A DNA stretch of 36,560 nt, taken from assembly GCA_025928015.1 (NCBI GenBank), contig JAICKJ010000003.1, positions 1 through 36,560 of the forward strand. The letters run 5' to 3'. How positions within the stretch are numbered: position 1 is the stretch's first letter; each line of letters opens with the position of its first letter. A program made the translations under genes and the position numbers. Below the pieces are notes generated by a model, which saw only the letters and a list, made by a program, of their open reading frames with translations, ran no database searches and was not told where the DNA came from. Shown one piece after another: positions 3,283 to 12,885 of this stretch. This DNA comes from Thermomicrobiales bacterium (lineage in GTDB: Bacteria > Chloroflexota > Chloroflexia > Thermomicrobiales > UBA6265).

Positions 3283-4362
3283 CTATCCTCCGACTGGTTG
3301 GCATCCATTGTAGAAGAAGAGCTGAAGCTCGACTTCGCCTGTCGGAGTATCGCCCGGGAGGGCAATGGCCTCCTGACCAGCGTTCGCAAAGATCTGCGAA
3401 TAGTCGTTCTTCAGGATCTGATTGATCGCCTTGGAGAGCGTTGAGCCCGTCGAAACGTCGGGCGACTTTGAGGACGTGAGGACGAAGCCGACCTTGCAGC
3501 CTTGACCATCGATGTACTTCTTGAGCACGCCATCGAGTTGCTTGCGCGCATCCGCAACCGCGCCGGAATCACCCGAGTTGACTCCGTCGAGATCGACACG
3601 AATCGTCTCCGTCACCGAGTTCGGATTCAGCGAATTCGCCTGCGCCTGTTGCGCCAGCACGGTCGAGGTCGCCTGGATCGAGACGACGCCGTTCTGGTTC
3701 GCGGCGGAAGTTGACTGGACCGAGTTGAGCTGCGCCTGCGCGGCGGCGAGTTGTTGTTGCGTCAGCGTCGCCTGGGCGCTCAAGGTCGCCTGGGCGTTTG
3801 CGCCGGAGTTGGCTTGCTGGGTCGCGATCGCGTTCTGCTGCAATTGTTGCTGCGCCACCTGGGTCGAAAGGGCCTCCGCCGTCGCCAGCCGCGCGTTCAG
3901 GTCCTGGTTCGACTGCTGCGACTGCGCTTGTTGCGTCGCGTAGGCGGAGAGCGTCGCTTGCGATGAAAGCGCCTCCTGCGTCGAGAGCGCGTCGGCGGTC
4001 GCCCGCTGGTCACTCGTCATCGCGGCGCGGGTCTGCTCGGCCTGCGCCGCCTGGGTCGCGTTGTTCTGATAGATCGCCAGCTCGGTCTGCTGTGCCTCGG
4101 CGGTCTGCGCCTGCGCGAGCTGTTGTTGCTGCGCAGCGGTCAGCGTCGCCTGGTTGTTGGCCTGCGCGACCTGGAACTGCGCCTGCGCGGTCGCAAGCTG
4201 GTTCGGCGTCGCGGTCGGGGTCGGCGTCGGCGGCTCCTTGCCGACCGTGTTGGCGGCGAAGAAGAGCATCGCGAGCCCGAGCAGCAGGTCGGCGAACAGC
4301 CACCCGCCGAGGGTGATCATGTCGCGCTGCTTGCGCGCCCGCCGGTGTTTGAGCGGAAACAT
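3283..4362 (-). CDS. Single-TM protein with Gln/Ala-rich stalk; possible MotB/ExbD-like membrane segment and OmpA-like C-terminal domain
   Basis: 359 aa; N-terminal TM GGWLFADLLLGLAMLFFAANTVG with embedded Asp25, PTPTPT linker, ~190 aa Q/A/T-rich stalk, then a ~105 aa globular domain. RBS GCAGGAG upstream. Confidence 0.8.
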   Translation of the reverse strand: MFPLKHRRARKQRDMITLGGWLFADLLLGLAMLFFAANTVGKEPPTPTPTATPNQLATAQAQFQVAQANNQATLTAAQQQQLAQAQTAEAQQTELAIYQNNATQAAQAEQTRAAMTSDQRATADALSTQEALSSQATLSAYATQQAQSQQSNQDLNARLATAEALSTQVAQQQLQQNAIATQQANSGANAQATLSAQATLTQQQLAAAQAQLNSVQSTSAANQNGVVSIQATSTVLAQQAQANSLNPNSVTETIRVDLDGVNSGDSGAVADARKQLDGVLKKYIDGQGCKVGFVLTSSKSPDVSTGSTLSKAINQILKNDYSQIFANAGQEAIALPGDTPTGEVELQLFFYNGCQPVGG

Positions 4363-4412
4363 CGACTACTCCTGCGGGAACCAGAATGCGGGGTGGATAT
4401 GGGTCAGGATGG

Positions 4413-6119
4413 TCACGAACGGGGCGTGCGGGACCAGAATCCGGGCGAACCCGGCGCGCGCTCCGGCTCGTCGGTCTCGTCGCTGGCGACAACGGTGCCG
4501 CCGCGGCTCAGCTCTTGCCGGGTGGCCGTGCCGCGCAGCGCGTTGGCGAAGGCTTGCTGGAGCGCCTCGGTCGATGGCACCTGCTGGCTCAAGCGGGAGA
4601 GCGAGTTGGCGAGACCATCGAGTCGCTGCATGAGGTGGGTCAAGTCCTGGCTGACCTCGCGTTGGCGTTGCGCAGTCGTCATGCCGACCGCGCCCAGCTC
4701 CTTCGTCACGGTGGAGATGTCCCGCGCGATTTCGGCCTGCTGGTTGAGCAGATTGTTCAGCGCGGTGCCCTGTTGCGCCGACTGCTGGCCGATGCGGTCG
4801 AACTCGTCCCGGAAGCGGCCGAAGACCGCGCCGATGTCGTTCAGCGTCCGCGCCGTCGCTTGCGCGCTCGACGTGTTGGTGCGCAGCGCCTCGGCCAGGC
4901 GAGAGTTCGCCTCGGTGCCGGTGGACATGGCGGATTCGACCCGGCTCTGGCTCTCGGCAATCGCGTTGGCGATCGCGCTGATGCCCCGCACCGCCTCCGA
5001 TGCCGTCCGGCCCGCCTGCGCGGCCGTTTCGGCGCCGCTGAGCGCCTTGTCGGACGCATCGGCCAGGCTGACCGCCGCTGCGGCGAGTTGCCGCGTCGCC
5101 GATTGGTCGCTCTGGATCGAGGAGGAGGTCAGCCGCTCCAGGTTGCCCACGGCCGTGAGCAGGCTGCGCTGCTGCTCGCTGGACGCGCCGATCTCGGAGG
5201 TGAGGTCTTCGAGCGTTGTCTCCAGGCTGGTCGACACCTGGCGCAGATCGACGAGCAATCGGTGCATCTCGTCCGCGCCGGCGCGCATGCCGCTGGCGAA
5301 CATGCCGAAGTCGGCGAACTCCTTGTCCCGCCGCGAGGCGAGCGATTCGAGCCGGTCGTGCTCGACCTGCAATTGTGTCAACAGCTCCTGACTGGACCGC
5401 TCGAACCGGTCCGCCAGCCGTTCGACGCTCTCCGTCAGCCGGGCCGGGCGGGAGGAGCGGTCGGAGGCGAGCGCGACGGTCGCTTCGGCCAGAATGTTCT
5501 CCAGGTCGGTCTGAACGGAGCTGGCCGTCGAGGCGATCACGTCCTCCTGGCCCTCGCGCCGGCCGTGGGCGTAGATCGTGAGCAGGATGATCGCCAGGAT
5601 GATCGCGGCGTCGATGAGGGCGACGGTCGAGAAGGAGGGCGCGAAACGGGACGCCTCGCCGCCAAAACCCCGCTGCCAGAGCAGCAGGAATGGCTGCGCC
5701 GACTGGTCGGGATGCCTGTCGATGAACCGGCGGTAGGCGGCGGACGCCTCGGCGAGCGCCGCCCAGGTCAGCAGGATCGGAAAGAGGACGAGGATATTCC
5801 GGAGCCGGTCGGCCATCTCGATCGACGCCGGCGCGTAGCCGCCCTCGCGGCGGACCGCGTAGGCTATCGCCAGCCGCTCGGTGTTGAACGCTTGCCGCAG
5901 ATCGACGTCGGTCCAACGCTGCCGGCCGCGTTCGCTCCCGAGCGACTCGGCCAAGTCGCGCAGCCGGCCGGCCGCGCGGGGATCGACCTCGCCCATCGAC
6001 GCGGCCATGCCCTGGAGGTCGCTGATCAAGCCAGCTTGCGCCGAGCGCCGGCCCGCCGTCCGATTCGGAACGCTGCCCGGAAAGACCAGCGTATCGGCGG
6101 AGGAGCTGAACTCATTCAT
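4413..6119 (-). CDS. Two-TM membrane protein with long helical/coiled-coil cytoplasmic-type tail
   Basis: ATG at 6119 (MNEFSSSADTLVFPG...) inside the longer ORF 4413..7781; hydrophobic segments near residues 106-125 and 165-184; ~380 aa MCP-like helical tail. Confidence 0.8.
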   Translation of the reverse strand: MNEFSSSADTLVFPGSVPNRTAGRRSAQAGLISDLQGMAASMGEVDPRAAGRLRDLAESLGSERGRQRWTDVDLRQAFNTERLAIAYAVRREGGYAPASIEMADRLRNILVLFPILLTWAALAEASAAYRRFIDRHPDQSAQPFLLLWQRGFGGEASRFAPSFSTVALIDAAIILAIILLTIYAHGRREGQEDVIASTASSVQTDLENILAEATVALASDRSSRPARLTESVERLADRFERSSQELLTQLQVEHDRLESLASRRDKEFADFGMFASGMRAGADEMHRLLVDLRQVSTSLETTLEDLTSEIGASSEQQRSLLTAVGNLERLTSSSIQSDQSATRQLAAAAVSLADASDKALSGAETAAQAGRTASEAVRGISAIANAIAESQSRVESAMSTGTEANSRLAEALRTNTSSAQATARTLNDIGAVFGRFRDEFDRIGQQSAQQGTALNNLLNQQAEIARDISTVTKELGAVGMTTAQRQREVSQDLTHLMQRLDGLANSLSRLSQQVPSTEALQQAFANALRGTATRQELSRGGTVVASDETDEPERAPGSPGFWSRTPRS

Positions 6120-6350
6120 GGTCGTGCGAGAATCGACTGGTCGGGTATCCCGCTCGTCAGTGGGGGTTGCGCGTTTGGATCGGAGCTGCAAAGGGCCCGT
6201 ACCTTTCTGACACCTGGCGTCCGCGGGATGGGCCGGGTTGCTCGCGGGTCCGTTACAATGCCTCGTATGTTTGATCCACTCTACCACTCTCCCGCAACCA
6301 GCAGATGGCCCAGCCGCTGGTCCCTCCCCGCCAGAGGTATAGAGTAACGC
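6120..6350. promoter_or_regulatory. Shared divergent promoter region between the membrane pair and the kinase-like gene
   Basis: 231-bp intergenic region between divergent starts; no convincing -35/-10 pair identified by eye. Confidence 0.5.
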
Positions 6351-8666
6351 ATGACCGTACTCAACACGTTCTCGAACGCATTGCGTCACCATTCGGTTTC
6401 GGCGACGGCGGATGAACGCGCGGTGCTCGGCCCGGACGGCGAACCGGCCGTGATCGTTGGCCGCGATGCGCTCGTGACCCGCGTCCGCCGCGCGAATGGA
6501 CAAAACGCGGCGCTGCGGGTGCCCCTTGATGCCCGGGCGGGTGGAGACTGGCCGATTCGCTATGCCGCGCTGGAGCGGTTTCGCGCCGACTCGCGCGTCG
6601 GCGCGCGGTTGCCGGCCGGGATCGCTGTCAAGCGTGATGCGCTGGCGACCGGCACGGACGCGGAAGGCGGCGTCGGATTGCCGGCGGTTTCGATGGAGTG
6701 GATTGACGGCCCGACGCTGCTCGATGCGGTCGACCGTGCCTGTTCCGTCCGCAACACCGGCATCCTGACCGCGATCTATCGCGCATTGCTCGATGCGGTC
6801 AACGATGCACGAGTTGCTGGCTTCGTGCATGGCGACCTGGCCGCCGACAATTTGATGATTCGCCCAACCGGTCAGATGGCCTTCATCGATCTCGACGGCG
6901 CCACCTGGCGCGACGCGCCGTTCGGCGTCGCCGGGCGCGGAACTCCGGGGTACCGGCATCCGGGCGGCAATGGCCGGCAGCCGTCGTCGCGCGACGAGTT
7001 CGCGGCGCTCGTCCTCTTGGCGTCGTTGCTGATCTTGAGCGAGCAACCCGAGTTGCGGCGCCAATATGGCGATCCGCCGCATGTCCAGGGCGGCGCCTTG
7101 CTCTTCTCCGCCTGGGACATCTCCGACCCCTCGACCTCGCGACTCTTCGGGCTGCTCCGTGGCTCGGTCCGCCCGGCGACACGCACGGTGCTCGACGCGC
7201 TCGCCTCCGCCTGCGCCGCCGACCCCGACGAGGCCGCGACGTTTACCGCCGGTGTTGCTGGGCTGAAGCCCTTCCCGAAAGCGGATGAGCCGCGGAATTG
7301 GAGCGCAGGTTGGACCCAATCGCCTTTCAGCGACGACGTTGAGAACGTGTTGCCGTCGCTTCGCGCCCGCATGGGTGCCCAACCGGCTCCTGCGCCACAA
7401 CCAATGGATGCACTGGGTCAGGAAACCGTGCAAACGCCGGCGGCGGCGCCCCGGTTCGACGGGAATCTCGAAGTCTGGCGGGACCGCTTGCAGCGGGCGA
7501 TCGATCGCAACGACGATCTCACCGTCTCTCGCCTCTGGCCATCGCTGAAGCACGATCCCGCCGTCCAGACCATGGCCTATGCCGTCGCCGAGATCATCGC
7601 CGGCGGGTACGACAAGCGGATCGCGCAAGAGGCGAAACGCGGCCGCGACGATCTCGTCGCGCGCCTGGCGGAGGACGCGCGGCATCACGGCCTGGCTATC
7701 TCGACGGAGTCGCGCAAGTCTGCCCGGGCAGCGCGGGAGCGGTTGGCGACCCGGCACGCGCTCGAGCAGGCGCTGGCGCACAACGAGCAGCAGGCGCTGG
7801 CCGACCTGGCAATCTCCGGCCGCCTCGCCGAGCTGGGAGACGCGGACCGGGAGTCCGTCCGCCGGGTGCTGCGCGCACTCGAATGGCCCAACCTCTCGCG
7901 CGCCCTCGATTCAGACGACGACCGCCTCATTCTCGGTGCCTACGACGAAGAACTGTTCAGCCAGTCCGATGCGTTGGAGCAGACTGTGCGCGAGCGGATC
8001 GAGCTGGCGCGGCAGCGCTCCTCCTGGCTGGAAGAGGTCCGCGCGTCGCTCAGGCGCCGCGACGCCCATCTGCTGGCGCGATCGTTCGCCAAGCCACCGC
8101 CGGGCGCGGAGAGTCGTCTGAGTACCGCCGAGCGGAAGCGCGCCTTCCGGCTGATCGAGCGCGAGCGGGCGATCGCCGAGCTGAACACGGCGATCCAGGA
8201 ACGGGACGAGGCGAAGATCATCGCCGCGTTGGGATTCGTCGAGCGCGTCGGCGCGCGGATCGGCGATCGGGCCGACTGGTCGATCGTCAAGCGCGTCGTC
8301 GACCGGGTCTCGCTGATCCACGACCTGAAGGAGGCTGTCGAAGCCAGACCAGTGGACTACGGCCGGATCGCGCGGTTGCTGCCGGCGATTCGCGCGCTCG
8401 GCCTCGAAGGCGATCCGCGGCTGACCGGCCCGATCGAGCCGCGCCAACTGGCGCGGGAGCTCGTTCGCAACGCGCATCTGCGCCGGATGAGGATCGCGTT
8501 GAAGCGCGGCCACGAAGTCGCCATCGCCGTCGCCGCGGTGCCCGAAACCAACGACGCCTACCACCTGCTTCGGACCGATGAGCAGCTTCGCGTCGATCTG
8601 GCCCTCCAGAACCGCAACCGCACGCGCCCAGATAGCCCGGTCACCACCTGGCCCACGGCAGGCTAG
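6351..8666 (+). CDS. Atypical protein kinase-like protein with C-terminal helical repeats
   Basis: 771 aa; catalytic-loop-like HGDLAADNLMI (H160, D162, N167), DLDG (180-183) in the DFG position, and GTPGYRHPGG after it; the C-terminal ~400 aa is helix-rich. Confidence 0.8.
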   Translation: MTVLNTFSNALRHHSVSATADERAVLGPDGEPAVIVGRDALVTRVRRANGQNAALRVPLDARAGGDWPIRYAALERFRADSRVGARLPAGIAVKRDALATGTDAEGGVGLPAVSMEWIDGPTLLDAVDRACSVRNTGILTAIYRALLDAVNDARVAGFVHGDLAADNLMIRPTGQMAFIDLDGATWRDAPFGVAGRGTPGYRHPGGNGRQPSSRDEFAALVLLASLLILSEQPELRRQYGDPPHVQGGALLFSAWDISDPSTSRLFGLLRGSVRPATRTVLDALASACAADPDEAATFTAGVAGLKPFPKADEPRNWSAGWTQSPFSDDVENVLPSLRARMGAQPAPAPQPMDALGQETVQTPAAAPRFDGNLEVWRDRLQRAIDRNDDLTVSRLWPSLKHDPAVQTMAYAVAEIIAGGYDKRIAQEAKRGRDDLVARLAEDARHHGLAISTESRKSARAARERLATRHALEQALAHNEQQALADLAISGRLAELGDADRESVRRVLRALEWPNLSRALDSDDDRLILGAYDEELFSQSDALEQTVRERIELARQRSSWLEEVRASLRRRDAHLLARSFAKPPPGAESRLSTAERKRAFRLIERERAIAELNTAIQERDEAKIIAALGFVERVGARIGDRADWSIVKRVVDRVSLIHDLKEAVEARPVDYGRIARLLPAIRALGLEGDPRLTGPIEPRQLARELVRNAHLRRMRIALKRGHEVAIAVAAVPETNDAYHLLRTDEQLRVDLALQNRNRTRPDSPVTTWPTAG

Positions 8667-11116: not shown

Positions 11117-11376
11117 CGTCTGCCCTCCCGGTGCTGATTGGTGCTACGATCTCGGTATCCCCGCTGACCGCAGGTATGACGCCTTCGGGCGGCATCCTAC
11201 CCGGGAGTTGTCGCTGGGGCAAACGCGACCGACCCGGCCCGGCTGGTAAAGTTGACCGTACACGTCGTGCGCCGGGGCCGTTGCCGTCTCGCGTCCGATC
11301 GATCACGCCGAGCCGCTTTCGTCGACCAGGGATCACCATCACCGTGCGCGCCGAGCAGGAGCAGACAACCGGGCGA

Positions 11377-12885
11377 ATGGCGTCCGTTCCGGGCGCCAGG
11401 TTGATCGTCGCCAACCGCTACGAGGTGGATCTCGACCACCCGCTCGGTTCCGGCGGCATGGCCGTCGTCTATTCCGGCCGCGATCTCCGCTCCCGCCGGC
11501 AGGTCGCCGTCAAGACTCTGCGGCCCGAATACCAGCGCCTGCCAGGGTTGCGCCAGCGCTTCCGGCACGAAGCGCGGATGATGGCGATCTGCACCCACCC
11601 CAATCTGGCGACGATCTACGACCTGCACGAGGACGAGCGCGGCTCCTGGGCGATCATGGAGTTCGTGCCGGGCGAAAACCTGAAGCAGCTCATCGAGCGC
11701 GAAGGGCCGCTTCATCCTGAAGAGGTCGCCTCGATCCTCGATCAGGTCAGCGCGGGTCTGAAGGAGATCCACGCCAAGCGTCTCGTCCACCTCGATATCA
11801 AGCCGCAGAACATCCTGCGCGAGCCCGACGGACGGGTGAAGCTGATCGATTTCGGCCTCGCCCAACCGGCGGGCGAGACACAGCAGATGGACGACGGGCG
11901 CGCCTTCGGGACCGTCGCCTACCTCGCCCCGGAACAGGCCAGCGGCGAGAAGGTCACCGCCGCCAGCGACGTCTATGCGCTTGGCTGCGTGGCCTACGAG
12001 CTGCTGACCGGCGCGCCGCCATTTCAGGCCCCGGACGGACCGGAGCAAAAGAACCAGCTCATCCGCGCCCACCTGAACCAGACGCCCGTGCCGCCGACGC
12101 AGGTGCGTCCCGAGTTGCATATCCCGGCCTGGGTCGATGATGTGCTCGATTGGGCGCTGGCCAAACGGCCGGAAGATCGTTTTCACGATGTCCAGACCTT
12201 CGCGCGGATGTTCCGCTCCGGCACGGAGGGCGAGGCGACGCCGGCACCCGATGCGACTCAGCCGCTGACCTCGGCCAACGGTCACGGTCCCCGCCGCTGG
12301 TTTCCCTCGCGCCGCCAGGCGCCGGTGCCAACACTGGTCAAGGCCGCTCCGGCCGCCGCGATCCCGACGATGGAGCCGTCGACGCCATCCAAGGGGCGCC
12401 GGCTCTACCAGCTCGGCGGCCGCGCCGCCCGGCGCGGCCGCCGCTTCCGGCGGTTGCTCTGGCGGCTGACCTTGGTCCTCGCGATCGGGAACCTGATCCT
12501 CGGCATGGCGCTCCTGGTCCGAGGCGGACCCGCCTTGCTCGTGAGTCGCGCACTCTCGGTCGCCCCCGGCACGACCACGACCGTCGCGGTCGATAACCTG
12601 AATCTGCGGATCGCGCCCGGCTCAGCGGCGGAGATCATCACCGTGTTGCGGAGCGGTGATGAGGTGCGGGTCACCGGCCTGTCGCAAGAAGCCGATGGCA
12701 ATCGCTGGTGGCCGGTCGAGACGCGGCAGAACGACGTCGTCCTGAGCGGATTCGTCTGGGATGGCGGGCTGGCACCGAATCAATGGACGGGACGCATGTC
12801 CTGGGCGCAACGCGCCGTTGACCGCGTGCAGGACGCACGCCATCGCATCGGCGACGGAATCGCCTGGATGAGAAACCTCTTCTGA
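11377..12885 (+). CDS. PknB-type Ser/Thr protein kinase with TM and C-terminal SH3b-like domain
   Basis: GSGGMAVVYSG, VAVKTL, HLDIKPQNIL, IDFGLAQ, GTVAYLAPEQ; one TM; ectodomain VDNLNLRIAPGSAAEIITVLRSGDEVRV. Start uncertain (GTG at 11344 is an alternative). Confidence 0.92.
   Translation: MASVPGARLIVANRYEVDLDHPLGSGGMAVVYSGRDLRSRRQVAVKTLRPEYQRLPGLRQRFRHEARMMAICTHPNLATIYDLHEDERGSWAIMEFVPGENLKQLIEREGPLHPEEVASILDQVSAGLKEIHAKRLVHLDIKPQNILREPDGRVKLIDFGLAQPAGETQQMDDGRAFGTVAYLAPEQASGEKVTAASDVYALGCVAYELLTGAPPFQAPDGPEQKNQLIRAHLNQTPVPPTQVRPELHIPAWVDDVLDWALAKRPEDRFHDVQTFARMFRSGTEGEATPAPDATQPLTSANGHGPRRWFPSRRQAPVPTLVKAAPAAAIPTMEPSTPSKGRRLYQLGGRAARRGRRFRRLLWRLTLVLAIGNLILGMALLVRGGPALLVSRALSVAPGTTTTVAVDNLNLRIAPGSAAEIITVLRSGDEVRVTGLSQEADGNRWWPVETRQNDVVLSGFVWDGGLAPNQWTGRMSWAQRAVDRVQDARHRIGDGIAWMRNLF

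Follow-up and report, generated by a model that had tools for sequence, protein, structure and literature searches.

A conserved membrane protein pair with an atypical kinase-like neighbour in Thermomicrobiales: a candidate stator-like complex

We analysed a window of 36,560 nucleotides from a Thermomicrobiales bacterium (contig JAICKJ010000003.1), in which three genes between positions 3283 and 8666 encode two membrane proteins, here termed A and B, and an atypical kinase-like protein. The B gene (3283-4362, minus strand) is an open reading frame for a stalk protein of 359 amino acids with one transmembrane (TM) segment, whose homologues adjoin A in almost every A-B locus inspected. A gap of 50 nucleotides (4363-4412) separates it from the A gene (4413-6119, minus strand), which starts at the ATG at 6119 and encodes a two-TM protein of 568 amino acids with a coiled-coil tail. 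The kinase-like gene (6351-8666, plus strand; 771 amino acids) is transcribed away from A across an unstranded intergenic region of 231 base pairs (6120-6350), and this divergence is kept across the family to which the genome belongs. Both A and the kinase-like protein were delimited from open reading frames and homologues. An earlier sequence-only reading had described the same three-gene layout, and its gap and spacer agree with our coordinates to the base. Its TM counts were likewise borne out by hydropathy, which gave exactly one TM segment in B (residues 18-36), two in A (residues 109-127 and 166-184) and none convincing in the kinase-like protein. Because homologues (~31-66% identical) in the same arrangement exist in other genera, the three genes are not chance open reading frames. 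That reading had further held that none of the three fits a named family. This holds for A and B, for which no curated Pfam or NCBIfam model scored above cut-off; the kinase-like protein exceeded the Pfam cut-off for APH only (4.6e-06).

Within the window's own family, A was found in 25 of 32 genomes, and B and the kinase-like gene were found in those same 25, adjoining A wherever the contig was long enough and with the kinase divergent where it shared a contig with A. Completeness reaches 90% or more in 11 of the family genomes, and each of these carries all three genes; where A was missing, completeness was 65-84%. In other families of the same order, A was found in none of 29 genomes. Across genera of the family A is 45-66% identical and the kinase-like protein ~31-45%. 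The flanks of the module (thioredoxin, glycosyltransferase, oxidoreductase, isomerase and a second kinase) are also conserved in the family, and the remainder of the window consists largely of housekeeping genes. No match to the module was detected in collections of phage and plasmid records. In this family the module is a core chromosomal set, not a mobile island, and is apparently vertically inherited. The second kinase gene (11131-12885, plus strand) resembles an ordinary Ser/Thr kinase and lies close to the module; its homologues occur near the module in ~10 family loci and may share a regulatory neighbourhood with it.

The TM helix of B, LGGWLFADLLLGLAMLFFA (residues 18-36; 4255-4311, minus strand; assigned by hydropathy), contains Asp25 (codon 4288-4290). 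The segment follows the pattern GW(L/I/V)(F/W/Y)AD and continues as a Leu-rich helix, and the Asp is present in 38 of 38 homologues, which were gathered via A, B or the kinase and not via the motif. Profile alignment placed this residue in register with the Asp of MotB (56-71% probability) and that of ExbD (44-65%); on shuffling of the TM columns, the observed score was reached in 1 of 100 trials for MotB and 0 of 100 for ExbD. Searched against the PDB, the B profile returned just two weak matches, one of which was ExbD (E-value 0.7), again with the Asp in register; this match is weak alone, and its position is consistent. As judged from its sequence, B appears to possess the single N-terminal TM segment with Asp found in stator B subunits. 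A match of the B profile to the dehydrogenase 4ni5 (E-value 0.085) was rejected.

Beyond the membrane, B comprises a low-complexity stalk (approximately residues 41-240; 3643-4242, minus strand), recognised by its composition of 25% Ala, 24% Gln and 12% Thr and much shorter in homologues from other classes, followed by a C-terminal globular domain of predicted OmpA-like topology (residues 240-359; 3286-3645, minus strand). AlphaFold modelled the C-terminal 120 residues with a mean pLDDT of 92.8 as strand-helix-helix-strand-helix-strand-strand. A Foldseek search with this domain returned the OmpA-like structure 3td4 (probability 1.00, TM-score 0.55, E-value 0.0075, above the 0.001 cut), together with the wall-binding domains of SiiA and TagL, the list spanning E-values of 0.005-0.02. 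Stretches resembling the stalk or C-terminal part of B were also observed elsewhere in some family genomes (G025:C647:8712-9422, G027:C361:2318-2884 and G012:C123:4754-5533). Some lie inside larger open reading frames, and they may represent an independent deployment of this domain, or else contigs that were split.

The A protein begins with ~100 cytoplasmic residues, followed by TM1, an outer loop of ~35 residues, TM2 and a helical or coiled-coil tail. Its membrane core (TM1, approximately residues 104-127; extracytoplasmic loop; TM2, approximately residues 163-187; 5559-5810, minus strand) was delineated from alignments, AlphaFold and Foldseek, and the loop carries a conserved PFLLLWQxGF. 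An alignment of 33 diverse sequences revealed P114, A125, W148 and F152 to be invariant and D46, L53, R107, T118, W119, Y129, L145, G151 and D170 to be at least 90% conserved; T181 shows no variation within the family alignment and is mostly kept elsewhere. Of these residues, P114, T118 and W119 fall in TM1, and D170 and T181 in TM2. AlphaFold predicted core helices at residues 98-135 and 163-222, with pLDDT mostly above 90, and helices of moderate pLDDT at 226-333, 339-415, 422-512 and 517-531. The latter make up the cytoplasmic tail (residues 226-531; 4527-5444, minus strand), for which matches in the PDB and PADLOC were of coiled-coil type only. We discounted matches of this kind to SMC, JetC, chemoreceptors and the ZorA tail, attributing them to composition. 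A Foldseek search with the full A model returned three ExbB structures (probabilities 0.80, 0.72 and 0.57; E-values 0.3-0.8).

The kinase-like domain of the third protein (approximately residues 28-310; 6432-7280, plus strand) was located by homologue alignment and by its APH and STK_OB profile matches; it resembles PADLOC STK_OB (1.2e-11) and the kinase domains of LanL/LanKC. Homologue alignment placed Arg56 (6516-6518, plus strand) at the beta-3 Lys position, H160-G161-D162 (from 6828) with N167 downstream, and D180-L-D182 (6888-6896, plus strand). The HGDLAADN and DLD motifs are present in the window protein, which does not carry the canonical Hanks-type set of beta-3 Lys, HRD Asp and DFG Asp. 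The C-terminal region (approximately residues 361-771; 7431-8663, plus strand) gave no Pfam domain above cut-off. A motif scan found several short, related, helical-looking motifs in this half of the protein (for example at residues 376, 467, 511, 607 and 655), and the region is conserved among homologues; these motifs could plausibly form a docking surface.

Using A as query against 301 Chloroflexota genomes added 18 outside the family, at 23-36% identity. In the loci fetched outside the family, the B gene adjoins A except at Ktedonobacterial paralogues of A (L096, L098 and L100). As the 33-sequence alignment of A was too variable for a locus search, the TM motif of B was scanned instead, as a DNA pattern, over 84,980 GTDB species genomes. 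This produced 95 stretches, and those listed are by title all from Chloroflexota or Actinomycetota, except for one 'uncultured bacterium'. The motif lies inside a B-type open reading frame in ~80 of the 95 loci, and A was detected beside B in all but ~5 of these; in three of the exceptions the locus is truncated close by. Since the pattern fixes the Asp, the scan bounds the taxonomic range only, and conservation of the Asp was judged from the separate 38 homologues. From this linkage, A and B almost certainly constitute one functional unit. The sequence-only reading stood to fall if homologues of the three genes were rarely adjacent or if each belonged to a characterised family; the three were found together in the window's family and the A-B pair across the phylum and beyond, and the proposed module survives. 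The searched open-access literature held no description of the A-B pair, which is apparently a widespread and unnamed family in Chloroflexota and Actinomycetota.

The neighbours of the pair vary by lineage. In Thermogemmatispora the operon order is kinase (homologous to that of the window), DO-GTPase2, GAP1 (GAP1-N2/GAP1-M), A and B (L103; L104, 660-10649; L106; L107), and in Dictyobacter and Thermosporothrix it is GTPase, GAP1, A and B. Other A-B pairs neighbour PP2C, NB-ARC/TPR and NERD-kinase-STAND proteins. The Thermogemmatispora operon is preceded by a conserved gene of ~235-355 codons that we did not recognise. The divergent Ktedonobacterial A paralogues (L096, 8574-9902; L098, 7748-9211; L100, 5897-7285) lie behind genes for a homologous kinase and a PP2C-like protein and have no B gene, and the gene after them reads by eye as a TetR-like regulator. 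Additionally, in a Nanopelagicaceae metagenome-assembled genome (L175, 157-5402), A-B adjoins genes for a signal peptidase S26-like protein and a collagen-repeat protein, which suggests that freshwater actinobacteria have a gene cluster for a surface structure.

Taken together, we consider A and B to be probably a stator-like complex of the MotAB/ExbBD/ZorAB/GldLM kind, with a probability of roughly 0.6. For B this assignment draws on the motif, the topology and the predicted fold; its basis is narrower for A, namely the architecture and a weak fold similarity. The analogy to ZorAB and MotAB drawn from sequence in the earlier reading gains from the TM Asp motif, the predicted OmpA-like fold and the cytoplasmic tail on the two-TM partner. 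In such a complex, five copies of A, each with two TM helices and a long cytoplasmic tail, would form a ring around two copies of B. The TM helix of B would insert into this ring, with D25 carrying a proton or other ion, and the stalk and OmpA-like domain would extend to, and presumably bind, the cell wall or surface. By analogy with ZorA, T118 and T181 are candidates for a Ser/Thr ring in A. The kinase-like protein likely controls the complex, as its linkage suggests: its C-terminal region may bind, or its kinase domain may modify, the cytoplasmic part of A and so set the state of the complex. For the module in the window's family, the likeliest role would be to sense the envelope or transduce force, in relation to cell-wall status, growth or stress; an envelope function is favoured because the module is a core, syntenic and apparently vertically inherited chromosomal set. 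It is close to an even chance, on the lower side, that the pair represents an undescribed branch of minimal ion-driven stators with a two-TM A in Chloroflexota and Actinomycetota, a general envelope-spanning unit for signalling or force whose partner would differ by lineage: the atypical kinase, a DO-GTPase/GAP1 pair or surface-protein genes.

Several observations weigh against the stator-like assignment. Profile comparison of A with MotA/ExbB/TolQ returned 0.09%, no significant sequence link, and the PF01618 (MotA/ExbB) model did not match A; as homology to PF01618 was not found, we lowered the claim of membership in the stator superfamily and left the mechanistic analogy open. A has two TM helices, as opposed to three in ExbB and four in MotA, and its Foldseek list is otherwise dominated by long, mostly unrelated helical proteins, with E-values above 0.001. 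The C-terminal domain of B resembles unrelated alpha/beta folds (ThiL, PurM, chorismate mutase) to a similar degree, its comparison with the MotB profile returned 1%, and a hidden Markov model search of the domain gave no match. The kinase side is similarly qualified. No homologue of the window kinase was detected alongside the A-B pairs of Actinomycetota. Furthermore, every homologue compared has Arg at the beta-3 Lys position, and 3 of ~28 relatives have lost the HGD Asp (HGN, HGA, HGE); phosphorylation is therefore uncertain, and the protein may have weak kinase activity or act as a nucleotide-binding scaffold. Across the window genome, the Pfam models for MotA/ExbB, MotB_plug and OmpA gave no match, and we counted this negative result in favour of the stator-like assignment.

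A different explanation casts the module as a conflict system, either anti-phage or self/non-self, whereby a Zorya-like A-B pair senses perturbation of the envelope by phage and the kinase, joined in Ktedonobacteria by DO-GTPase2 and GAP1, triggers a response. DO-GTPase/GAP1-N2 systems have been predicted to act in conflicts, are enriched among multicellular bacteria and show a kinase/PP2C theme (Kaur et al. 2020, PMC7159879); neither MotB nor ExbD is mentioned in that study. The Ktedonobacterial operons described above lend support to this explanation, as do the NB-ARC/TPR, NERD-kinase-STAND and PP2C neighbours of other A-B pairs and the resemblance to ZorAB, within which the PADLOC match to the ZorA tail (0.0012) is weak and probably due to coiled-coil composition. 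Against it, the module occurs with conserved flanks in every family genome of at least 90% completeness, unlike a sporadic island, and A keeps 45-66% identity across genera. GAP1 was found neither in the window genome (76.5% complete), which gave no DO-GTPase match either, nor in 40 relatives, and DO-GTPase2, nearly absent from the family, was matched in only 1 of 33 genomes; no effector-like gene adjoins the module. We regard a defence role in this lineage as possible but unlikely. Among the functions proposed from sequence, signalling and envelope roles fit better here, and defence is weakened in this lineage, where the module is near-universal, syntenic, set among housekeeping genes and without a match in the phage and plasmid records, though its genes occur in predicted conflict operons in Ktedonobacteria.

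Slightly less probable still is a non-conducting transmembrane signalling pair, in which B senses the wall or surface, the A tail passes the signal to the kinase and the Asp serves helix packing only. In its favour, proteins of signalling function (kinase, PP2C, GTPase, NB-ARC) neighbour the pair, the A tail is a coiled coil and the kinase may be non-catalytic. However, the Asp occupies the same register as the ion-carrying residue of MotB and ExbD, within a specific motif rather than in just any hydrophobic helix, and near-invariant Pro, Thr and Asp such as those in the TM helices of A typically line a polar channel. We give the least weight to the kinase being an independent neighbour of a functional A-B unit. 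The pair occurs without a detected kinase homologue alongside in Actinomycetota and several Chloroflexota, and the kinase is divergently transcribed and evolves faster than A; conversely, it accompanies A in 25 of 25 family genomes, and homologues share an operon with A in distant Ktedonobacteria.

The stator-like assignment can be set beside known systems. In the ZorAB complex, the Asp of ZorB is packed against a ring of Ser/Thr residues in ZorA, whose long tail is needed (PMC11890865). The present pair shares with the 5:2 ion-driven ZorA/ZorB a two-gene membrane organisation, a long helical cytoplasmic tail on A, an N-terminal TM Asp on B (D24/D21 in ZorB, D25 here) and an OmpA-like domain, here predicted. 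It differs in its two-TM A without detectable MotA_ExbB domain, its kinase partner and its core chromosomal status in the family. No ZorB model matched, ZorA matched the tail only, and no Zorya effector genes were recognised beside the module. ExbB/ExbD and TolQ/TolR share the TM Asp motif in register and the weak A-ExbB fold similarity, whereas A has no sequence match to them, B bears a long stalk and a predicted OmpA-like domain, and TonB/TolA partners were not found here. GldL/GldM, the motor of gliding and the type IX secretion system (T9SS), combines a two-TM A-type subunit with a one-TM B-type subunit that has a large extracytoplasmic part; no significant sequence match to it was found (a weak coiled-coil match of A to GldL only), and the periplasmic domains of GldM differ. 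STK_OB and LanL/LanKC gave the best profile matches of the window kinase domain, which departs from them in its long C-terminal region without recognised domain and its Arg at the beta-3 Lys position. DO-GTPase/GAP1-N2 systems share operons with Ktedonobacterial A-B (in Thermogemmatispora also with the kinase) and the kinase and PP2C themes, in contrast to the window genome and its relatives, which lack GAP1. If the assignment is correct, it would directly link these predicted GTPase-centred conflict systems to ion-driven sensing and prompt the question of what purpose such motors serve in bacteria mostly without an outer membrane; named species of Thermogemmatispora, Dictyobacter and Saccharothrix make the module testable. 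To the stators known from flagella, Ton/Tol, gliding/T9SS and Zorya it would add another, with a two-helix A.

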